The translations under genes and the position numbers were made by a program. The notes below the pieces were generated by a model, which worked only from the letters and a program-made list of their open reading frames with translations, had not been told where the DNA came from and did not search any database. This document shows positions 26,019-36,034 of a stretch of 36,034 nucleotides of DNA, one piece after another. Origin of the DNA: Muribaculaceae bacterium Zag1 (GTDB taxonomy: Bacteria; Bacteroidota; Bacteroidia; Bacteroidales; Muribaculaceae); the NCBI GenBank assembly GCA_002633115.1, contig NWBJ01000124.1:12946-48979 (forward strand). Direction: 5' to 3'. Position 1 is the first letter of the stretch; every line of letters begins with the position of its first letter.

Positions 26019-26774
26019 ATGAATGCAATAGGTTTAGCAGCAATCGGCGTGGGTGGCTCGACAATCATCGGGTCGGCCTTGGGATTCTTTATCAAGAATG
26101 TGTCGCATCGCACCAACGACACCATCATCGGCCTCTGCGCCGGGGTGATGCTCTCGGCTGCTGTGCTGGGCCTGTTGTTGCCGGCATTTGATATGTGTCC
26201 TGACTGGAGCCAGGTATGGCTGCCGTGCCTCGGCGTGGCTGGCGGTATCGTGGTGCTCAATCTGCTTGATAGCCTCACTCCCCACCTGCATCACATCACC
26301 GGCATTGATGAGGAGGAGCATCGCCACAACCAGCACCTCAACCATGTGCTGCTGTTTGTGATGGCAATCGCTCTGCATAAATTTCCCGAGGGAATAGCTG
26401 CCGGCGTGGGCTTTGGCGGCGAACCCATCGACCAGGCGGCAAGCGTGGCGATAGCAATCTCGCTGCAAAATGTGCCCGAGGGCATGGTCATAATCTCGCC
26501 CTTGCTGTTGGCCGGGGTGAGCCGACTGCGCACATTCGTGATTGCCATAGTGATTGGCGCGCTTGAGGTGGCCGGGGTATTCACGGGCTACTACGTAGCA
26601 GAGTTGTCCGAGGCTGTGTTGCCATTTATCCTGGCACTCGCTGGCGGAGCCATGCTGTATGTGGTGAGCGATGAGATGATACCCGAGAGCCATGCCCACG
26701 GGTATCAGAAACCTGCCACTTATGCCCTGCTTGCTGGATTTGTGCTGATGATTCTGATCGAACGTCTCAGTTAG
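26019..26774 (+). CDS. ZIP-family divalent metal transporter
   Basis: 251-residue inner-membrane metal importer (zinc, iron or manganese) of the ZIP family with eight predicted membrane segments. The metal site motifs are explicit: LHKFPEGIAAGVGFGG (TM4, HxxxE) and ISLQNVPEGMVIISPLL (TM5, NxxxE). A histidine-rich loop (PHLHHITGIDEEEHRHNQHLNH) between TM3 and TM4 is typical of ZIP regulation. It has no own promoter that I can see and follows the heptamer array, so it may be read from the ABC operon. Its stop overlaps that of the convergent antiporter by a few bases. Confidence 0.92.
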   Translation: MNAIGLAAIGVGGSTIIGSALGFFIKNVSHRTNDTIIGLCAGVMLSAAVLGLLLPAFDMCPDWSQVWLPCLGVAGGIVVLNLLDSLTPHLHHITGIDEEEHRHNQHLNHVLLFVMAIALHKFPEGIAAGVGFGGEPIDQAASVAIAISLQNVPEGMVIISPLLLAGVSRLRTFVIAIVIGALEVAGVFTGYYVAELSEAVLPFILALAGGAMLYVVSDEMIPESHAHGYQKPATYALLAGFVLMILIERLS

Positions 26775-28088: not shown

Positions 28089-28178
28089 CAAAAAATATTC
28101 CAATTTATCACCCTCCCCACCCCCCAACCTGATAATTTCCTACCTCTCCCCCACCAATCCCTTAAAATCAGAGAATAA

Positions 28179-28210
28179 TTTGTCAATCAGGAATTTTATT
28201 GCTAACTTTG
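28179..28210 (+). promoter_or_regulatory. Predicted promoter of mini-Rpn copy 1 (TTTG / TAACTTTG)
   Basis: TTTG (28179-28182) and TAACTTTG (28203-28210) are 20 bases apart, an ideal Bacteroidetes promoter. The sequence from TAACTTTG to the start codon recurs almost unchanged before mini-Rpn copy 2. Confidence 0.7.
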
Positions 28211-28237
28211 CCATACAACCCTATAACCTATACGATC

Positions 28238-28513
28238 ATGTGCACAGAGAGATACATAGACCAAAGCTCCACCGATTTCGAATTCCAGAGGATGTTCGAG
28301 AAATATGAGGCCTATCAGCTCAGCCTCAAGCGCCAGCGCGACAGTGCCAACATCGTCAGCACCGCAAGAGAAGAAGGCCGAGAGGAAGGAATCCATATAG
28401 GCATCGACAAAGAGAAGCAGCGCATGGCTCGTGAAATGAAGCAGGCTGGCGAGCCTATCCCCAAAATCATTCTCTACACCCACCTCACCGAGCAAGAAAT
28501 CTCCAAGTTGTAA
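28238..28513 (+). CDS. Mini-Rpn copy 1: internally deleted Rpn/PD-(D/E)XK-family protein
   Basis: 91 residues. The start MCTERYID...TDFEFQRMF matches the opening of Rpn/PDDEXK_2 transposase-like nucleases (YIDPFTDFGFKRLF), and the rest, FEKYEAYQLSLKRQRDSANI through the charged EEGREEG helix to KIILYTHLTEQEISKL, matches their C-terminal end. The nuclease core of roughly 200 residues between is absent, with the join right after RMF. So no catalytic residues remain. Its DQSST replaces DPFT of copy 2. It has its own promoter and downstream hairpin. Rpn family C-terminal pieces have been described as inhibitors of the full nuclease; this is a possible role. Confidence 0.7.
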   Translation: MCTERYIDQSSTDFEFQRMFEKYEAYQLSLKRQRDSANIVSTAREEGREEGIHIGIDKEKQRMAREMKQAGEPIPKIILYTHLTEQEISKL

Positions 28514-28560
28514 GCCATTGACCATAATTGTATAGAAAGAAAAGCAAAGAAAAATTCCCC

Positions 28561-28597
28561 AAAAGTTACGGAAACAAATTTTCTTTCCGTAACTTTT
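28561..28597 (+). terminator. Hairpin after mini-Rpn copy 1
   Basis: AAAAGTTACGGAAA (28561-28574) and TTTCCGTAACTTTT (28584-28597) form a 14-bp stem with a 9-base loop, ending in a T-rich stretch. The same core follows copy 2 at 29644. It also separates copy 1 from the convergent lipoprotein gene. Confidence 0.75.
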
Positions 28598-28633
28598 TAG
28601 GAAAATTTCTTAAGGATTTAAGTTTGAAGTGAT

Positions 28634-29131
28634 TTAATTTAGGTAGCCGCTGCCATGGCAAGTTTGGCATTTGCCGGAGCTGTGGCAGTAGGTGCATTCA
28701 TGGGTGATGCCCATTTCGGACACATGGCCTCGGCCATGACAGTTGTTGCACTTGCCAGAACCATAGCAATAGCGATGGTCGCCCGATCCTAACCACACCG
28801 ATGGCTCGCATTTCTTTCTTGAAGAGGTAGAAGCTGAGCTTCTTGAAGAGCTCGATGAAGAAGAGCTACTGCTTGTCGATGAGTAGTCACTGCTTGACGA
28901 AGAGTAGCTTGTTGCCACGTATGTGGTAGGGGTATTTGCAAGCGTTGACCATGTGTTGACCGAAGCATTGCTGCCATAGATAGGGGTACTGTAGGCTGAA
29001 TAGTAGGGGGCATATCCCGAGCCATAGCCTCCCATACCGGCGAGGAAGCCTTCGCCGAAGCTTCCGCATGAGGTCATTACTGTCATCACTGCCATTGCGA
29101 CCCAGAGTCGAATTTGATTTTTCAGTGCCAT
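28634..29131 (-). CDS. Lipoprotein with poly-Ser linker and DnaJ-like CxxC zinc knuckles
   Basis: 165 residues. Lipobox MTSC (Cys 22) is followed by GSFGEGFLAGMGGYGSGY. Residues 76-104 are almost pure Ser. The C-terminus has two similar knuckles: YCYGSGKCNNCHGRG (Cys 122, 128, 131) and CTYCHSSGKCQTCHGSG (Cys 146, 149, 155, 158), like the CxxCxGxG modules of DnaJ. No J domain is present. A longer paralogue is at 31294-31962 and a LysM version at 32971-33864. It is predicted to be lipid-anchored, with the knuckle domain held away from the membrane by the linker. Function unknown. Confidence 0.78.
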   Translation of the reverse strand: MALKNQIRLWVAMAVMTVMTSCGSFGEGFLAGMGGYGSGYAPYYSAYSTPIYGSNASVNTWSTLANTPTTYVATSYSSSSSDYSSTSSSSSSSSSSRSSASTSSRKKCEPSVWLGSGDHRYCYGSGKCNNCHGRGHVSEMGITHECTYCHSSGKCQTCHGSGYLN

Positions 29132-29180
29132 AATCCTGTACTTTTAGTTTCTTATTTTACTATTAATGGCAACGAGAAAC

Positions 29181-29188
29181 CAAAAGTA
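29181..29188 (-). promoter_or_regulatory. Predicted -7 element (TACTTTTG) for the 28634 lipoprotein gene
   Basis: TACTTTTG on the minus strand, followed by a leader with CCATTAATAGTAAAA-like sequence. The paralogue at 31294-31962 has the same box and ATTAATGG leader (32006-32013), so the promoters were probably duplicated with the genes. Confidence 0.5.
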
Positions 29189-29304
29189 ACCCCTAGGCCT
29201 AAAAACTTTCAACCGATGGCATACAGAAGGGACCCATATAAGAAAATTTTGTGGAAAATTCGGAAATTCTCAATAGGTATATACCCATATTCAAAATTAA
29301 TTGT

Positions 29305-29312
29305 TAACTTTG
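29305..29312 (+). promoter_or_regulatory. Predicted -7 element (TAACTTTG) of mini-Rpn copy 2
   Basis: TAACTTTG followed by GCCATACAACCCTATAACC and on to the ATG, the same as in copy 1. No good -33 TTTG is present, so this promoter may be weaker than that of copy 1. Confidence 0.5.
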
Positions 29313-29339
29313 CCATACAACCCTATAACCTATACGATT

Positions 29340-29600
29340 ATGTGCACAGAGAGATACATAGACCCATTCACCGACTTCGGATTCAAGAGAATGTTCGAGA
29401 AATATGAGGCCTATCAGCTCAGCCTCAAGCGCCAGCGCGACAGCGCCAACATCGTCAGCACTGCGAGAGAGGAGGGTTGGGAGAAAGGCCGAGACCAAGA
29501 AAAGTTACGCATAGCCTGGGAAATGAAGCAGGCTGGCGAACCCACCGCCAAAATCATTCGCTACACAGGCCTCACCGAGCAAGAAATCTCAGAGCTGTAA
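29340..29600 (+). CDS. Mini-Rpn copy 2: internally deleted Rpn/PD-(D/E)XK-family protein
   Basis: 86 residues, nearly the same as copy 1 over its first two thirds (MCTERYIDPFTDFGFKRMF, then the EKYEAYQLSLKRQRDSANI block) and keeping the canonical DPFTDFGF motif. The join to the C-terminal block is at the same residue as in copy 1, so the deletion predates the duplication. The charged helix is shorter (EEGWEKGRDQEKLRIA), and it ends RYTGLTEQEISEL. The start at 29340 matches that of copy 1. Leader, frame and downstream hairpin form one duplicated cassette of about 400 bases. It has no nuclease centre; a regulatory or immunity role is possible. Confidence 0.7.
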   Translation: MCTERYIDPFTDFGFKRMFEKYEAYQLSLKRQRDSANIVSTAREEGWEKGRDQEKLRIAWEMKQAGEPTAKIIRYTGLTEQEISEL

Positions 29601-29643
29601 GCTAATTACCATAATTATAATAGAAAGGCAAGTAAACAATAGC

Positions 29644-29683
29644 CCCAAGTTACGGGAAACAAATTTGTTTCCCGTAACTTGGG
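29644..29683. terminator. 40-bp perfect palindrome after mini-Rpn copy 2
   Basis: CCCAAGTTACGGGAAACAAA is followed at once by its exact reverse complement (29644-29683). The core matches the hairpin at 28561-28597 but is longer, with compensating changes in both arms (GGGAAAC / GTTTCCC). It separates copy 2 from the convergent DUF4595-like gene. Confidence 0.75.
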
Positions 29684-29718
29684 ATTCGATGAGAATTGAG
29701 TATAGTAGAAATGCGTAA

Positions 29719-30750
29719 TTAGCGAGCCTTCTTCATGGGGGAAGCTTTATGGCGAGCTTCGCGCATCATTTTTCTGTATTCACGTGACAACGGTGGAGTC
29801 ATGCTCTCATCATAATCATACGATGACCATTTCTCAGCCACCTCGCTGCGCGAGCTAGTGAAATCCTTGTAAGTATAGCTCGTAGTGTAGGTACTGCTAG
29901 TTCTGACCCCAATAGAATTTACATAAGTATAATCTTCTGTTTCAGATTTGATGGTCCCATCAGCATTGTACGCCAAGGTATATTCACTGGTCTCTGAATA
30001 TGAACCTCCGGAGTCATAAGTTACATTCTTCACTACGCTATATGGAAAATCGGCAGTAGTTTTTCCAAACAGACCAGCCAGCCAGAAAAGATTATACTCA
30101 CAAGAAAGATAATCCGAAATGGCAGTTGTGAATTGTCCTATCTCGTTCGATTCACTATATTGAATGTGAGTAGTGCGAGTACTACTATCCGAATCAAAAT
30201 TCCCTTCTCTCCATGAGTATGTAGTATTAACCTGGGTTAGGTTGCCATTCGACCAGGACATTGAAGTATTTGTATTTTCTGTATATGTAATATCCATTCC
30301 ATAGTCAGAATCATAATAATTCTCCTGATAGAGTTCAATATACCCTGTTAGATGGCCCGAACTATCATAAGAGAAAGTGGCCTTATATAGGCCTGTATCC
30401 CCGTCAGAATATGTGGTTTCCTCCTCAATTGAAGTGATGCCCCCATACTCGTTCATTGTGAATTGTGATTCGTATATTCCGCTTCCGGTATACCAGAAAA
30501 GTCCCGCATCATAGTCAAAGCTAAAATCATAGACTTTAATTGGCAGTCCGTCAGAATTGTAGGTCATGGTTACACTGCCAATCTTGCTTGCTACAACTTG
30601 CTCGCCGTAATTATTGGTGAAGACAGCATTTGCCTTTACCTTAGATGTATCAATTGAGCCGCCATGCTCATCATCGTCACCGCAGGCTGAGAATCCGAGG
30701 CTCATGGTGATGGCCATAAGGAGCATGGCCAAGAATTTGATTTGTTTCAT
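29719..30750 (-). CDS. Surface lipoprotein, DUF4595-like
   Basis: 343 residues. Lipobox FSAC is followed by GDDDEHGG, an acidic run right after the Cys that fits the Bacteroidetes lipoprotein export signal to the cell surface. The body is a beta-rich series of strands with pattern YNSDGLPIKVYDFSFDYD, ATFSYDSSGHLTGYIELYQ and LAYNADGTIKSETEDYTY, as in DUF4595 and YD-repeat-like proteins. The C-terminal 30 residues are basic (REYRKMMREARHKASPMKKA). It lies 37 bases after the small lipoprotein gene at 30788-31168 and probably shares its transcript. Function unknown. Confidence 0.78.
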   Translation of the reverse strand: MKQIKFLAMLLMAITMSLGFSACGDDDEHGGSIDTSKVKANAVFTNNYGEQVVASKIGSVTMTYNSDGLPIKVYDFSFDYDAGLFWYTGSGIYESQFTMNEYGGITSIEEETTYSDGDTGLYKATFSYDSSGHLTGYIELYQENYYDSDYGMDITYTENTNTSMSWSNGNLTQVNTTYSWREGNFDSDSSTRTTHIQYSESNEIGQFTTAISDYLSCEYNLFWLAGLFGKTTADFPYSVVKNVTYDSGGSYSETSEYTLAYNADGTIKSETEDYTYVNSIGVRTSSTYTTSYTYKDFTSSRSEVAEKWSSYDYDESMTPPLSREYRKMMREARHKASPMKKAR

Positions 30751-30787
30751 TGGGTTTGATATTTGTTTGGTTAGTAACTGTAGTCAA

Positions 30788-31168
30788 CTATTTGAGAAGG
30801 GTTATGGTTTCATACTCGTCCATGTCTATCAAGACCAATTGGGTACTTGTTAGAGAATAGATCAAATAGGTGTTGGTGTAGGCGTTGTTGCTACCGGCTA
30901 CAGCTTTGATATTGATAACAAGAATGTCGCCAGAAACGGAGTAGGTGCCAGTGCGTGTCTGGGTAGCCCCAGCGATAACGGTATTGACGCTCTGGAAGCT
31001 TCCATTACTTGAGAACACCCACTTATCGGTGGTGTCGCCATTCACCCACCATGTACCCACCAGGCTTGAACTGGAGATGTCATCATCATCGTTGCCGCAG
31101 GCTGAGAAGCTGATGCTCATCGTGAAGAGCATCAACAGCATGGTAAGGAATTTGATTCGTTCTTTCAT
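30788..31168 (-). CDS. Small surface lipoprotein, lipocalin-like
   Basis: 126 residues. Signal MKERIKFLTMLLMLFTMSIS, lipobox FSAC, then GNDDDD, again an acidic surface-export signal. The remaining 95 residues are a beta-barrel-like set beginning LVGTWWVNGDTTDKWVFSSN and ending YSLTSTQLVLIDMDEYETIT, the pattern of Bacteroidetes lipocalin-like proteins (GTW near the start). The signal peptide is closely related to that of the downstream gene (KFLAMLLMAITMSLGFSACG). Ligand unknown. Confidence 0.75.
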   Translation of the reverse strand: MKERIKFLTMLLMLFTMSISFSACGNDDDDISSSSLVGTWWVNGDTTDKWVFSSNGSFQSVNTVIAGATQTRTGTYSVSGDILVINIKAVAGSNNAYTNTYLIYSLTSTQLVLIDMDEYETITLLK

Positions 31169-31293
31169 TGTTTTGTAAGTTTTTGATGTAGTGTTTGATA
31201 TGTAATTGTCACAGGGATATTTGGGTTACTTTCCCATTAATCGCACAGAAATGGCAAAGTAGCACTATTGTCAACTAAAATTTTAACATTGTC

Positions 31294-31962
31294 CTAATCG
31301 AGGTAGCCAGAGCCATGGCACCTTTGGCATTTGCCAGAACTTTTACAATATGTACATTGCACTGTATTTCCAAAAGACTCAACATAACCTCTGCCATTAC
31401 AGTTGTGACATTTACCAGAGCCATAACAATAACTATGGTCAGTGGATCCACCCCATTGTGAAAGTGTTGGAATACACTTTCTCCTCGAAGAGGTAGAAGA
31501 ACTCGAAGAGGTATAAGAACCATTAGAGGAACCATAAGATGTAGACCCATAGGAGGTATCGTTTCCGTTTGACTCCGCATAAGCCTGAGCAACCAACATA
31601 CGCCATTCATCTTTAGAAATATTCGAGCCCGTGGCATTCAGAAACCACTGGTATGCTTCCTCTTCTTGGGCGTTGGTTTGCTGGATGGCACTTGACATTG
31701 CCCAATTGCTTACCTGTTGCATTTGGGCATTTTGAGCATTCGTTTGCTGGATAGCACTAGCCATTGCCCAATTGTTTACCTCCTGCAGCGAAGCATTTGC
31801 CCCAGGCATGGAATTTGCCGTGTAGGCATTATAGCCCCCATAGCTTGAATAGCCCATAGGCGAATAGCCTCCCATGCCTGCCAAGAAGCCTTCACCAAAG
31901 CTTCCACATGACTGAAGGGTCAAAATTAAGAATATAGTTACAAAGAGATTAAATTTCTTCAT
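31294..31962 (-). CDS. Lipoprotein with CxxC zinc knuckles, paralogue of 28634-29131
   Basis: 222 residues. The lipobox and following block LQSCGSFGEGFLAGMGGY are shared with the paralogue. Inserted after it are two copies of NWAMxSAIQQTNAQ (about 64-77 and 86-99) and an AYQWFLNATGSNISKDEWRM segment. A Ser-rich linker (about 145-160) leads to two knuckles: YCYGSGKCHNCNGRG (Cys 179, 185, 188) and CTYCKSSGKCQRCHGSG (Cys 203, 206, 212, 215). The knuckles are better conserved than the linker, which argues for a function in metal or peptide binding. Location should be the periplasm or outer membrane. Function unknown. Confidence 0.78.
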   Translation of the reverse strand: MKKFNLFVTIFLILTLQSCGSFGEGFLAGMGGYSPMGYSSYGGYNAYTANSMPGANASLQEVNNWAMASAIQQTNAQNAQMQQVSNWAMSSAIQQTNAQEEEAYQWFLNATGSNISKDEWRMLVAQAYAESNGNDTSYGSTSYGSSNGSYTSSSSSTSSRRKCIPTLSQWGGSTDHSYCYGSGKCHNCNGRGYVESFGNTVQCTYCKSSGKCQRCHGSGYLD

Positions 31963-32005
31963 ATTGTCGGTTTCTAATAGTTTACCATTAATGGCACAAA
32001 AAAGA

Positions 32006-32013
32006 CAAAAGTA
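32006..32013 (-). promoter_or_regulatory. Predicted -7 element (TACTTTTG) for the 31294 lipoprotein gene
   Basis: Same box and similar leader (ATTAATGG region) as before the 28634-29131 paralogue, 43 bases upstream of the ATG at 31962. Confidence 0.5.
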
Positions 32014-32032
32014 ACCAGTGGAATTGAGATTT

Positions 32033-32905
32033 TTATAGATTAACCCAGCCTGAAATGCCTACTTCGAAATAGCCGTCTTCGCCAAAATAGGCCTTTTGAT
32101 GTTTGTTTACGGGGAAATGATAACCAGCGAAAATGCCAAAATCCCATAAATGGATATGTGCCCCTAACTGAAAGTCGACACATGTCTTTGGCGCTTTAAG
32201 TTTAGGTGTCTCAACACTTTCACCCATCGTTGAACTTTTCAGCTTTGATTTCAATCCTATGTTGAAATCAAAGTTTGCAATAGGCGTGATGCCTACTTTT
32301 GAGAAAGAGCCAAAAGAATAGCCCAATCCCAGAGGCACAGTGAGAAAATGATCATTTTGCTCAACATCACTCCAAGATCCAATCTGGCTGGCCCAAGCAT
32401 AAGACCTGGTATTTCGATAACCAACCCCTAAAAACACCTTAGCTCCTTGATAGAAATTGTAAAAGCCATTTATCGTGATAGCCAGAGAAGTTACATCCAA
32501 GCTCGAATTTGTGTGGATAGTATGGTCAGATTCAGATTCGTTCTTAATGAACCCTAAACCCATTTGCAAAAATGCTCCCCATTTCTTGTCTGAAGAGTCA
32601 TCAGCGGTTTCAGAGTATTGGACATTTTGATTCTGATAGGCTTGAACTGCTTGATTTGAAGTTGCATTTGTAGCTGATGTGTTTGCCGAAGAATTCAGAG
32701 TGGCTCCCTCAGGGAGAGTCAGTTCCATGCCGACATAGATGAACTGGCCGGCATCGGGGTTGAGCTCGATGATTTGGGCGCGAGTAATTCCAAACTTCTG
32801 AGCTATGGAATCAAGGTTATCGCCACGCTCCACGACGTAGGTCTCAGCCATTGCGCTCAGCCCCAGCGAGAACAGAAGGCATAGGAATAACAAAACTTTT
32901 TTCAT
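32033..32905 (-). CDS. LysM domain plus outer-membrane beta-barrel protein
   Basis: 290 residues. Signal peptide about 1-20 (LGLSAMA-ET). LysM at about 22-65 (TYVVERGDNLDSIAQKFGIT, then IELNP...FIYVGMELTLP). A Ser/Thr/Asn-rich linker follows (about 68-100). From about 106 the protein is a small barrel: GAFLQMGLGFI, VTSLAITINGFYNFYQGAKV, LGLGYSFGSFSKVGITPIAN and DFQLGAHIHLWDFGIFAGYH. LysM at the periplasmic end would tie a barrel to peptidoglycan. It is last in a four-gene cluster with two other LysM proteins. Confidence 0.8.
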   Translation of the reverse strand: MKKVLLFLCLLFSLGLSAMAETYVVERGDNLDSIAQKFGITRAQIIELNPDAGQFIYVGMELTLPEGATLNSSANTSATNATSNQAVQAYQNQNVQYSETADDSSDKKWGAFLQMGLGFIKNESESDHTIHTNSSLDVTSLAITINGFYNFYQGAKVFLGVGYRNTRSYAWASQIGSWSDVEQNDHFLTVPLGLGYSFGSFSKVGITPIANFDFNIGLKSKLKSSTMGESVETPKLKAPKTCVDFQLGAHIHLWDFGIFAGYHFPVNKHQKAYFGEDGYFEVGISGWVNL

Positions 32906-32970
32906 TCAATCAAAAATTTAAGGGTTAGGTAATAAGTTGATTTTAGGTTGAAAGAGGATAAACTTCAGGA

Positions 32971-33864
32971 TTATTGGCAATATTTGCATTTGCCCGAGCC
33001 ACCGCAGAGAGTGCATTTAAGGGAATTAGCACCTTGGCCAAAACTTCCATTCATCAATCCATCACCACCGCACATACCGCATTTGCCAGTATTTCTGCAG
33101 TACCACTTGCCATTGTTAGCCTTAAGCGAAGGACAGGTTGAGCTGGAAGACGACTTTGATGAGCTCGATGAACTCGAGCTCGAAGAAGATGAGGAGGACG
33201 AGCTCGAATAAGAAGATGACGAGTTCGAGGACGATCTACTTGTCTTTTGCTGTTTGCTTTGCTGCGACTGCTCATAGGCCGTGAGGCCGACTACGGCAAC
33301 CGTTTGCGCAAGCCCAGCCCAGAATTGGGCATTCTCCTGAGATCGCTCCTGCTGGATTCGCTCTATGTCTTTGCAATACTCCTGCGCTTTAGGGAAGTTG
33401 CCTTCGTCGTCATATCTTACGACATATTTCAAGTCCTCGTAGGCTTGTTTATATTTATCACGCTGATATTGGGCCACTCCTCGTTGGTAATAAGCGATGA
33501 GCAGTGCATCCCCTTGCTCGATAATCTGGTCGTACAACTTTACGGCTTGTTTATAGTCGCCTTTACGATATGCAGTCTGAGCCTCGGAATATAGCGAATT
33601 TTTATGGTAAGCCTCTTTCAGTTGCAGATCATAATCCGAAATGGTGACTGGAATCACCAACTCCAGCCCGCAATACACAAAATCGATATCAAAATTCGCT
33701 TTGCTGATTTCCTCGGGAGTGGTGCCGTATAGCTTTGCTATCGAGGCTAAATCTTCGCCACGATCCACCACATGGGTTTTCTGTCGTGCCTCAGGGGCCG
33801 CATAGGCATAAACCGCCATTGTGGCGGCTATAAAAGCCAATAGTAGGTAAAGACTTCGTTTCAT
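32971..33864 (-). CDS. Secreted LysM - TPR-like - poly-Ser - zinc-knuckle protein
   Basis: 297 residues. Signal about 1-22, LysM 29-73 (THVVDRGEDLASIAKLYGTT...GLELVIPV), TPR-like helices about 92-165 (SEAQTAYRKGDYKQAVKLYD and GVAQYQRDKYKQAYEDLKYV), a hydrophobic helix 181-197, a Ser linker 209-242 and two CxxC knuckles: WYCRNTGKCGMCGGDG (Cys 256, 262, 265) and KCTLCGGSGKCKYCQ (Cys 284, 287, 293, 296), the last one ending the protein. The linker uses all kinds of Ser codons, so selection acts on the amino acid and not on the DNA repeat. It ties the knuckle module of the lipoproteins to the LysM cluster. Function unknown. Confidence 0.8.
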   Translation of the reverse strand: MKRSLYLLLAFIAATMAVYAYAAPEARQKTHVVDRGEDLASIAKLYGTTPEEISKANFDIDFVYCGLELVIPVTISDYDLQLKEAYHKNSLYSEAQTAYRKGDYKQAVKLYDQIIEQGDALLIAYYQRGVAQYQRDKYKQAYEDLKYVVRYDDEGNFPKAQEYCKDIERIQQERSQENAQFWAGLAQTVAVVGLTAYEQSQQSKQQKTSRSSSNSSSSYSSSSSSSSSSSSSSSSSKSSSSSTCPSLKANNGKWYCRNTGKCGMCGGDGLMNGSFGQGANSLKCTLCGGSGKCKYCQ

Positions 33865-33868
33865 GGTC

Positions 33869-34759
33869 TCATTTTGTTTGGATTACCAAATAGCTTGACA
33901 CTCGCCAGAAATCTGACGGATTATTGATAACCAAGCGGAATTCCCCACCCGACTTATACATCGAGAATGAGGATTCGGGCATGGTGGTGAGAATCTTCGG
34001 AGCTTTGTTGCAAGAGAAGGTTATCTCTTTCCATGTGCGCATATCCACCTTTACAAACTTGCTCTTATCGAGCATAGAGGCAGGATTGAGGTTTCCCTTG
34101 TTATCCAATACTCCTTTGCGCTTCAAGTCATCCTTGTTGCCAATCAGCACATAGCCGGTGTTGATATACTCGTCTTGCTTCTTAAGTGCCTCGCCTTGGC
34201 GCTGGGTCTGGGTATTGAGAGCAGTAATCTGCTCTGTTTGCTGATTTATGCGTATCGACTGGGTGCGCACTTGCTCGCGCAGCTCAGCGATGTTGGCATC
34301 CTTCTTCTCAAGTTCCTTGCGTAGCTCCGCAATCTGGCGGTCCTTAACTGCCACTTGGGCTTGTAGATTCTCAATAAGCTGCTGAGCCTCAGCGTTGAAG
34401 ACATTGCGCTTCAATTCCTCTTGCAACTCAACTATCTTCTTATGCTGGCGCAGCATCATTTCCTCATAGCGCTCCAAATTGCTCAGAGCATCTTGGCGCG
34501 TTATAGGCATTCCGTCTTTTTGGTCGGTATTCACAAAAATCATATCCTCCTCGCGGGCGATGGAATCCATGGTGGAGTTCATCATATTCACCGCTTTCTC
34601 GATGTTGATGAGTATTTGTGTCTGCACCTCAGCGGCAAACCGCAACGAATCGCGCTCGGCGATAAGCTGCATCAAGTCGCTCTTGCTGCCTGTGCCGCAG
34701 CTCGGCAGCAACAAAGCCAGGGCAAAGAGCACCAATAGTGGCAAAGAATATCTTTTCAT
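33869..34759 (-). CDS. Coiled-coil lipoprotein
   Basis: 296 residues. Lipobox LLPSC (Cys 21) is followed by GTGSKSDLMQ. About 75-200 is a long coiled coil (QHKKIVELQEELKRNVFNAE, VAVKDRQIAELRKELEKKDA, TEQITALNTQTQRQGEALKK). The C-terminal domain, about 205-296, begins YVLIGNKDDLKRKGVLDNKG and continues as beta strands to SSYLVIQTK. Similar lipoproteins exist in many Bacteroidales without known function. It starts 10 bases after the upstream gene and ends 4 bases before the LysM-zinc-knuckle gene, so these are in one operon and may span the periplasm together. Confidence 0.8.
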   Translation of the reverse strand: MKRYSLPLLVLFALALLLPSCGTGSKSDLMQLIAERDSLRFAAEVQTQILINIEKAVNMMNSTMDSIAREEDMIFVNTDQKDGMPITRQDALSNLERYEEMMLRQHKKIVELQEELKRNVFNAEAQQLIENLQAQVAVKDRQIAELRKELEKKDANIAELREQVRTQSIRINQQTEQITALNTQTQRQGEALKKQDEYINTGYVLIGNKDDLKRKGVLDNKGNLNPASMLDKSKFVKVDMRTWKEITFSCNKAPKILTTMPESSFSMYKSGGEFRLVINNPSDFWRVSSYLVIQTK

Positions 34760-34769
34760 AGGGATAGCC

Positions 34770-35546
34770 TTATTCTACTGCCACATATATAATAAGTTGT
34801 GTGCCAATGGGCAGTTGGGCCGATGCCTTTGTGCTCTGAGGCAGGTCATTCCATTCGATAATATCAGCTGGTGTCACATCGTACATCTGAGATATTGTAT
34901 CCAGGGTTTGGCCTTTTTCTACTCGATGGTATTTGAGCTCAAGGATTGGTTCTGCCTCTTCTTTCGGAGCAGTCTGGCTTTGCTCTGCTTGTGCTTCGCT
35001 ACCGACTGGAGGCAGCGGAGTGATAATCTCAGTCACACCACCCTTGTGGATAATCATGAAGACATGGTCACGCAAGAACACTTTATCATCATCAGCCTGC
35101 TCGGCTGCAGCTATCACTCTTTCCTCACGAGGGATCTTGCCCTTTTGCATCTGCTTGGCAGTATTTTCCAGAGCTTTCTTGTCCTCTGGGGTCAGTTGGA
35201 ATACGATTTCATTAGGCAATACCGACTTAATCACTACCGCCTTCTCGCCACCGTTGACAAGATACACTACATCGTTGGCGGTAGATGCCTTTGTGCCTTC
35301 GCCGCTGATGAGCTGCCCCTCGCTATTGACATAGCGGTTGCCTTGCGACTTAGTATAGATCATGTATATGTCGGTATAGGGCAGAGAATATTCCGCCTTT
35401 CTCAACATGTATTTAATGCCAACGGGGTTGTACTGGGTAATTTCGACCTCCATCACATCGCCCTCGCGAGTGATAATTTCGGCTTTTTCGGCAAAACATG
35501 TGCCTACAAACAGGGCAATCAGCAATAAAAGAGAAGCAAGTCTCAT
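34770..35546 (-). CDS. Secreted protein with C-terminal LysM
   Basis: 258 residues. Signal about 1-19 (LFVGTCFA-EK). The N-terminal domain of about 100 residues (AEIITREGDVMEVEITQYNP, SLPYTDIYMIYTK) is beta-rich and seen at the start of other Bacteroidetes envelope proteins. A charged linker (about 120-200) leads to LysM at 206-255 (YHRVEKGQTLDTISQMYDVT...LPIGTQLIIYV). It is the first gene of the four-gene cluster. The cluster combines three LysM proteins, a barrel, a coiled-coil lipoprotein and a zinc knuckle, which suggests a complex bound to peptidoglycan. Confidence 0.8.
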   Translation of the reverse strand: MRLASLLLLIALFVGTCFAEKAEIITREGDVMEVEITQYNPVGIKYMLRKAEYSLPYTDIYMIYTKSQGNRYVNSEGQLISGEGTKASTANDVVYLVNGGEKAVVIKSVLPNEIVFQLTPEDKKALENTAKQMQKGKIPREERVIAAAEQADDDKVFLRDHVFMIIHKGGVTEIITPLPPVGSEAQAEQSQTAPKEEAEPILELKYHRVEKGQTLDTISQMYDVTPADIIEWNDLPQSTKASAQLPIGTQLIIYVAVE

Positions 35547-35599
35547 AGACTATCGGTGGTGCAATGCCGTGGCCCCTGGCTTGCGGGAATTGGGATTTG

Positions 35600-35906
35600 G
35601 ATAAAAAGAAAAGCGCAGGCCGCTGTATCTTTTTGCTTGTCCCGTAGTTCGAGGCCTTCGCATTGCCCATACTCCTCAGAACAAGCAACGCAGAAGCCCA
35701 CGCCAGATATGGAGTGTCCAAGAGAGCAGCCACGCTGCTCTCCCGGCTCGTTACATATCACGTAGCCATCTACCGTTGCCTCGTCTTGGAGAAGTACTGA
35801 AAGTTGCGAAGTTTCGAACTACCAAAACAAAGCGTCAAGTAAACGCCTTTCCATTATGTCTATCAGCCCTTCCTCCCTGGCTTCAGCTAAAGCTCAGAAA
35901 GGATTG
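35600..35906 (-). ncRNA. Candidate structured RNA or long structured leader (unidentified)
   Basis: Between a TAAATTTG box (35913-35920) and a U-rich run (complement of 35602-35614) the minus strand can form several hairpins. One is a perfect 9-bp stem (35722-35730 with 35734-35742). Another pairs 35685-35697 with 35654-35666 at 12 of 13 positions including G-U. The loop of the latter (35679-35685) can pair with 35636-35643, a pseudoknot. A 72-codon frame from a GTG at 35761 crosses it but looks non-coding. It does not match my memory of tmRNA, RNase P or SRP RNA; 6S-like RNA or a leader of the LysM operon are options. Confidence 0.35.
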
Positions 35907-35912
35907 ACCTTG

Positions 35913-35920
35913 CAAATTTA
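35913..35920 (-). promoter_or_regulatory. Predicted -7 element (TAAATTTG) upstream of the RNA candidate / LysM cluster
   Basis: Minus-strand TAAATTTG follows six bases after the stop of the truncated gene at 35926. It is the best promoter-like site for whatever is transcribed through 35900-35547 into the LysM cluster. Confidence 0.5.
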
Positions 35921-35925
35921 GTCAT

Positions 35926-36034
35926 TTATTCGATTAATCCCAAATAACGGCTCATGCGCAAAAGTCCCTGGCTGCCGCTTAGCCAAAGATCATGGCGCAG
36001 CGGTAAAAGAAGAATGGCAAGTCCCTCACTCCGC
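35926..36034 (-). CDS. C-terminal end of an unidentified protein (truncated by window edge)
   Basis: On the minus strand one frame is open from the window edge to the TAA at 35926-35928, giving 35 residues: GLAILLLPLRHDLWLSGSQG, then LLRMSRYLGLIE at the end. The composition is like a normal protein and a promoter box follows directly after the stop, consistent with a real gene end. I do not recognise the family. Confidence 0.5.
   Translation of the reverse strand, partial: RSEGLAILLLPLRHDLWLSGSQGLLRMSRYLGLIE

Follow-up and report, generated by a model that had tools for sequence, protein, structure and literature searches.

A candidate exchangeable DnaJ-type cysteine tip on exported proteins of Bacteroidales

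The cysteine-rich domain of DnaJ carries four half-sites, and in bacteria one would not expect to meet a part of DnaJ beyond the cytoplasm. J-less relatives are described from plastids. ZnJ2 of algae has the zinc domain but no J domain and, according to the available part of its report, binds zinc and keeps proteins from aggregating without the help of DnaK (PMC5818400), and PSA2 of plants is, in the portion of its report that is available, a J-less DnaJ-like zinc protein of the thylakoid lumen (PMC4806229). Here we analyze a 36,034-nucleotide window (the whole stretch studied) from Muribaculaceae bacterium Zag1; it covers the final 36 kb (12946-48979) of a contig of 49 kb in a genome of 4.46 Mb. 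Three of its predicted envelope proteins, the lipoproteins LP165 and LP222 and a LysM/TPR protein, end in a DnaJ-like cysteine module (herein the cartridge), of which two types, A and B, are distinguished below.

The cartridges share with the DnaJ cysteine-rich domain the order of the half-sites and the long interval between half-sites II and III. Unlike DnaJ, the window proteins show no J domain, and the fronts that bear cartridges are different and, in most cases examined, exported; half-sites I-II and III-IV of type A are just 5 residues apart, and type B has HxH in place of a CxxC. The J-less DnaJ-type domain, here a putative zinc domain, is also the point of likeness with BSD2/ZnJ2 and PSA2, the latter lying in the thylakoid lumen; these are, however, eukaryotic plastid proteins, and the available text of the two reports describes neither a lipid or LysM anchor nor an exchange of cartridges (PMC5818400, PMC4806229). 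Phage Q-type antiterminators and anti-TRAP (RtpA) resemble the cartridges in their short zinc-knuckle motifs, with weak matches, and differ from them as transcription regulators with other fronts; both are taken to be cytosolic. A literature search, mostly outside subscription journals, returned no bacterial exported DnaJ-type zinc module.

Export signals and cysteine modules of the three proteins

All open reading frames (ORFs) named in an earlier, sequence-only reading of this DNA were found at their coordinates on the minus strand. Those bearing on the cartridges are given below; G006 is a genome of the same genus, and L050 is a locus from Bacteroidaceae bacterium RGIG6243.

28634..29131, minus strand: lipoprotein LP165, header SCGSFGEG, with a type A cartridge at 28637-28816
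31294..31962, minus strand: lipoprotein LP222, header SCGSFGEG, with a type A cartridge at 31297-31482
32971..33864, minus strand: LysM/TPR-like protein, 297 aa, with a Ser-rich linker and a C-terminal type A cartridge (ORF, Pfam, signal peptide rule)
32974..33141, minus strand: LysM/TPR protein, type A cartridge (75% identity with the cartridge of an L050 lipoprotein)
33142..33240, minus strand: poly-Ser linker of the LysM/TPR protein, containing the DNA breakpoint relative to G006
32907..33209, no strand given: stretch unmatched in G006 by blastn (cartridge end and intergenic DNA)

Each of the three proteins consists of an export signal, a Ser-rich linker, and a C-terminal DnaJ-type cysteine module. 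LP165 and LP222 have lipoboxes (MTSC and LQSC, respectively); the signal peptide of the LysM/TPR protein is a plain one. All of these signals were called by rule, without a signal-peptide program. Beyond residue 60, none of the three contains a strongly hydrophobic 19-residue stretch (the highest value is 1.14, in the LysM/TPR protein). A cytosolic location of the three proteins was rejected on the basis of the N-terminal export signals. No J domain is found among the Pfam and NCBIfam families listed for them (for the LysM/TPR protein, the best 25 of 27 in Pfam).

The knuckle C-x3-GKC-xx-C occurs twice in each protein. This motif, given in the sequence-only reading as C-x(3-5)-GKC-xx-C, covers six Cys; each module has eight, at residues 108, 122, 128, 131, 146, 149, 155, and 158 of LP165, 163, 179, 185, 188, 203, 206, 212, and 215 of LP222, and 244, 256, 262, 265, 284, 287, 293, and 296 of the LysM/TPR protein. 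The two lipoproteins follow the pattern C-x(13-15)-C-x5-C-x2-C-x14-C-x2-C-x5-C-x2-C, from which the LysM/TPR module departs in its first spacing (C-x11-C) and its central one (x18). The module thereby has four half-sites, ordered as in the cysteine-rich domain of DnaJ, with the first lengthened to C-x(11-15)-C; compared with the four CxxCxGxG of BSD2/ZnJ2-like proteins, motifs I, III, and IV of type A are degenerate. None of 200,000 random 60-mers at 1.2% Cys had at least three CxxC within 60 residues.

All eight Cys are invariant in type A (9 sequences). In type B (11 sequences), which reads CxxCxGxG, CxxC, HxH, CxxCxGxG (C2-C2-HxH-C2), six Cys and one His are invariant, and the second His is nearly so; the turn glycines are conserved in both types. 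Alignments of these 9 and 11 sequences were compared with one of 8 DnaJ domains in profile-profile mode (hhalign). Type A matched the DnaJ domain at 95.8% (E = 6.5e-9) over all four half-sites, and type B at 96.8% (E = 2e-10) over half-sites II-IV. When the columns of the DnaJ domain alignment were shuffled, 0 of 60 shuffles reached the score for either type in each of three controls (no columns kept; Cys columns kept; Cys and Gly columns kept). The best sequence match of type A in the Protein Data Bank (PDB) is the cysteine-rich domain of Escherichia coli DnaJ (1exk; E = 4.3e-6; positions 11-41 of the 50 in the profile), followed by a human DnaJ homolog. Searching the PDB with whole LP222 gave nothing relevant (best E = 0.08).

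These comparisons bear out the exported, J-less DnaJ-type modules at the level of sequence, and the modules are probably zinc-binding. Several claims of the sequence-only reading thus stand: three proteins with two C-terminal DnaJ-like knuckles, two of them lipoproteins and the third with LysM and TPR-like parts (LysM and TPR_2 exceed their Pfam cut-offs), all placed by their export signals outside the inner membrane, without a J domain and with conserved cysteines.

Two cartridge types on homologous fronts

The LysM/TPR protein is encoded in an operon of four minus-strand genes, in order those for a LysM protein, a Cbp1-family lipoprotein, the LysM/TPR protein, and a LysM-barrel protein. A search of 49 genomes of the genus, the own genome included, found one relative with the operon, G006, where the LysM/TPR protein is matched at E = 3.6e-127. 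Matches to this protein at E ≤ 0.001 occur in 22 of the 49 genomes; near-full-length ones are confined to the own genome and G006, and the others listed are stretches of ∼46 to 117 residues. The operon proteins of the window and G006 are 90, 89, 80, and 75% identical.

The front of the G006 LysM/TPR protein is 87% identical to that of the window protein over 198 residues, but its cartridge is of type B. In bins of 60 alignment columns, DNA identity is 78-94% in the front, 65% in the linker bin, and 40-47% in the next four bins (the last bin, at 67%, holds only 15 aligned bases); blastn similarity picks up again at the LysM-barrel gene. The DNA breakpoint between the two genomes falls within the poly-Ser linker. 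This alignment would most simply be read as a single replacement, one border of which lies within the poly-Ser tract. That type B arose from type A at this site was considered and rejected, given the breakpoint and the drop in DNA identity from ∼86% to 40-47%. In both genomes that have it, the LysM/TPR protein keeps a DnaJ-type cartridge, though of different types; we infer that cartridges are exchanged by recombination in the linker and that selection keeps some cartridge at this site. The pair, with the same front and a different tip, is a natural swap experiment for what tips A and B bind and for any difference between the two. The gap in G006 also holds an extra lipoprotein with a C-terminal LysM (L048 11223-11936) that resembles the LysM of the first operon gene (54% over 72 residues), which suggests that LysM ends may be exchanged as cartridges too.

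Three families of front parts carry either type A or type B: the LysM/TPR fronts (87% identity), the lipoproteins with the header SCGSFGEG (E = 2e-7 over a match of 33 residues only, signal peptide included), and the fronts of L053 and L061 (40%, E = 4e-19). The swaps amount to a handful of cases, the LysM/TPR case being the only one with a DNA breakpoint. One scan of genome contigs provided the two named relatives with the SCGSFGEG header, a lipoprotein with a type B cartridge in Bacteroidales bacterium SUG1559 (L049) and one with a type A cartridge in Bacteroidaceae bacterium RGIG6243 from sheep rectum (L050). The tip of the LysM/TPR protein shares 75% identity with the L050 lipoprotein tip, but 44% with the tip of LP222 and 38% with that of LP165, both encoded nearby.

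Of 295 genomes sampled from the order, 4 were matched by the initial type A profile (E ≤ 1e-5), or 3 once a genome with DnaJ as its sole match is set aside; the initial type B profile matched 19, but 10 of these had only DnaJ or DnaJ-sized matches (six were read and four judged on length alone), and 9 remain. Within the genus, type B is found in 5 and type A in 2 of the 49 genomes, and within the genus of G159 type A is found in 2 of 15, both already within the order sample. In a phylum sample of 345 genomes, type B was confined to the window's own genome (E ≤ 1e-6); the 20 other genomes listed there comprise 2 of the same order and 18 of the same class. The 7.9 kb mobilizable plasmid pRGF00008 (HG796775.1) carries a gene for a relative of L061 (34% identity over 81%) with a type B tip, and tips could be passed on in this way. 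The plasmid gene (L126 4851-5573, uncultured bacterium) has a neighbor with a signal-like N terminus, as judged by eye. No match to LP222 was found in plasmids, and none to LP165, the L049 lipoprotein, or L061 in phages; three of four scans of viral contigs gave no relative, and the fourth gave two 15-residue matches that were treated as chance.

Export was assessed in a set of 25 cartridge proteins, some of those from genome loci being taken as stop-to-stop frames; neither L066 (of 472 aa, the length of L065) nor the protein of the plasmid belongs to this set. An N-terminal hydrophobic signal (12-residue hydropathy of 1.80 or more) is present in 20 of the 25, a share that is biased because exported proteins supplied most of the profile seeds. 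Two of the remaining five are cut at contig ends (L043, L052), and three have no signal (L011 twice, L056). The cartridge forms the last 52-62 residues in 18 of the 20 signal-bearing proteins; the exceptions are L045 of the own genome, where type B directly follows the signal peptide, and L117, where type B is followed by an A-like module in the same chain. Fronts include WG repeats, DUF7477, Sel1, TPR, and LysM/TPR. A neighbor of the own-genome type B protein (L045 2124-2690) has a front with a weak resemblance to 34770-35546 (39% over 31 residues, E = 0.07). The signal-less type A proteins are those of L011 7520-8747 (G018) and L056 (G341), the latter genome also having L052, cut by the contig end; those of G018 adjoin what we take, by eye and without a search, to be dynamin-like GTPase and AAA ATPase genes.

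Possible roles of the cartridge

Our preference, held tentatively and as somewhat less than probable, is that the cartridge is an exchangeable, J-less, exported zinc-binding tip that would work like the BSD2/PSA2-type proteins, as suggested by its sequence and by analogy with them. The front part would serve as anchor or scaffold, through a lipid or through LysM plus TPR, and a flexible Ser-rich linker would join it to the C-terminal DnaJ-type cartridge. The tip would need neither a J domain nor Hsp70 or ATP for its work outside the cytoplasm, and most likely its predicted zinc-stabilized β-hairpins would hold extended polypeptide, be it unfolded or in-transit envelope proteins or the tail of a partner. 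A wider picture, which we regard as rather doubtful, would make the exported J-less DnaJ zinc domain a standard, horizontally exchanged tip in Bacteroidales: recombination in Ser-rich linkers would swap types A and B among proteins anchored by lipid, bound to peptidoglycan, or built on repeat scaffolds, and the envelope would thereby gain a layer for ATP-free chaperoning or docking that is carried on mobilizable plasmids as well.

Several observations weigh against the preferred reading. The DnaJ cysteine-rich domain family PF00684 (Pfam cut-off 32.7 bits) is not reached by LP222 (16.6 bits) or LP165 (13.1 bits), is absent among the best 25 of 27 Pfam families for the LysM/TPR protein, and stays below the cut-off wherever it is listed among the non-DnaJ proteins scanned. 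The half-sites are degenerate and motif I is stretched; motif IV of the LysM/TPR protein ends CKYCQ. In the PDB, type A also matched UvrA proteins (E = 0.0025 and up) and anti-TRAP (E = 0.024), and the top matches of type B were phage Q antiterminators and a DnaJ fusion, both near E = 0.002; generic zinc-knuckle similarity may therefore account for part of the signal, and the fold may have another role. The AlphaFold2 model of the type A cartridge has a predicted local distance difference test score (pLDDT) of 51.7 (4 sequences), Foldseek with this low-scoring model gave no match at E ≤ 0.001, and the full-length model of the LysM/TPR protein has a pLDDT of 45.9 (single sequence). The module is also rare and patchy, with non-DnaJ matches in 3 (type A) and 9 (type B) of the 295 order genomes, and the existence of type A relatives without an export signal (L011 twice, L056) indicates that the module as such does not entail export.

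An unlikely alternative, though one with a real chance of being right, is docking: the cartridge would recognize one specific envelope partner, or itself, types A and B being two specificities, so that a swap rewires the partner of a scaffold. TPR, Sel1, and WG repeats, which several of the fronts contain, often serve as interaction scaffolds. The two distinct ligand patterns on homologous fronts and the C-terminal position of the cartridge in 18 of 20 exported proteins are also as docking would have it; no common partner gene was recognized, though none was systematically sought. Client holding and partner docking are not distinguishable from these data. We consider a role in metal handling improbable, with the cartridges binding, buffering, or transferring zinc on the cell surface or within the periplasm. 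With eight Cys (type A) or six Cys and HxH (type B) per tip they could do so, and a ZIP-family zinc transporter gene lies ∼1.9 kb from LP165. That gene is, however, on the opposite strand, behind a Na+/H+ antiporter gene (PF03553) and outside the segment that is inverted relative to G006 (see below); G006 has the same ZIP gene without a knuckle lipoprotein, and the spacing and Gly pattern fit a folded DnaJ domain.

Redox activity, with the CxxC pairs working as a thiol-disulfide oxidoreductase or isomerase outside the cytoplasm, has a chance that is smaller again. According to the available portions of two reports, such activity has been reported for DnaJ, isomerase activity has been proposed for PSA2, and ZnJ2 showed no such activity (PMC5818400, PMC4806229). 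A redox role is made less likely by the HxH of type B, which stands where the fourth CxxC is expected, and by the retention of the turn glycines, as in structural zinc sites. Least likely in our view is one dedicated, peptidoglycan-anchored quality-control complex in which the knuckle lipoproteins would join the products of the LysM operon, as put forward in the sequence-only reading. All three knuckle proteins lie within 5.3 kb, and LP222 is 70 bp past the operon in the same direction; G006, however, keeps the operon and has neither LP165 nor LP222 at the syntenic place, and neither the LP222 search nor the type A profile matched anywhere in that genome, an absence that is probable, not proven, as the genome is 98% complete in 280 contigs. 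Conversely, L049 and L050 have such lipoproteins and no relatives of the operon proteins within 8.9 and 7.2 kb. At 22 other cartridge loci (L043 and L045 of the own genome included, G006 apart) no relative of the operon proteins was found in the flanks, mostly of ∼1.5 kb (best E = 0.07). Under the refuting condition that the sequence-only reading set, a lack of co-conservation of the knuckle proteins with the LysM genes, the dedicated complex is not supported; what survives of the proposed link to LysM is the cartridge of the LysM/TPR protein itself in both genomes.

The LysM operon and neighboring genes

The remaining features of the locus are as follows.

34770..35546, minus strand: secreted LysM protein with C-terminal LysM, operon gene 1 (ORF, Pfam)
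33869..34759, minus strand: divergent Cbp1-family coiled-coil lipoprotein (NF052320)
32033..32905, minus strand: LysM and putative β-barrel protein (Pfam LysM; OMP_b-brl_2 below cut-off)
29301..29600, plus strand: Rpn-type mini-gene, copy 2, on the other side of LP165 (TIGR01784, 36.5 bits)
28199..28513, plus strand: Rpn-type mini-gene next to LP165, copy 1 (33.2 bits to the C-terminal part of TIGR01784)
26019..26774, plus strand: ZIP-family zinc transporter gene, outside the operon (PF02535, 89.6 bits; cut-off 35.1)

The gaps between the operon genes are 10, 4, and 65 bp. LysM exceeds the Pfam cut-off of 20.9 bits in all three LysM proteins (36.3, 22.4, and 32.3 bits), and TPR_2 exceeds its own in the LysM/TPR protein (27.9 versus 27 bits). 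The operon partners had been described as a second LysM protein, a LysM-barrel protein, and a coiled-coil lipoprotein; all three are present, except that the barrel of the second is a weak match below the cut-off (OMP_b-brl_2, E = 0.006).

The coiled-coil lipoprotein belongs to an already known family. Cbp1 of Bacteroides fragilis binds collagen, as stated in the part of its report that is available (PMC3949742). The product of 33869-34759 exceeds the NCBIfam cut-off for this family (NF052320; 176.7 versus 90 bits); it differs in lying in a LysM operon and in being the lower-scoring of two copies in its genome, the better one being on contig C62. The family was matched in 123 of 198 genomes of the order (E ≤ 1e-10) and in 1 of 14 control genomes, that of Bacteroides ihuae. 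No relative of the operon's LysM proteins lies within ∼1.5 kb of the 30 best-scoring Cbp1-family loci (best E = 0.49); in the five loci viewed, family members adjoin what is presumably an rsmI-like gene.

The whole operon segment is inverted with respect to the adjacent antiporter gene (window 28159-35948 versus G006 L048 8207-17958). No inverted repeat joining the ends of the inversion was found in the available sequence of the two contigs, which end 86 and 101 bp past the far breakpoint. LP165 sits between the two Rpn-type mini-genes, which match only the C-terminal part of TIGR01784, both below its cut-off of 52.1 bits. The two are direct copies within a repeat of ∼400 bp (82%), where G006 has one (L048 17617-17919), and long palindromes adjoin both copies in the window.

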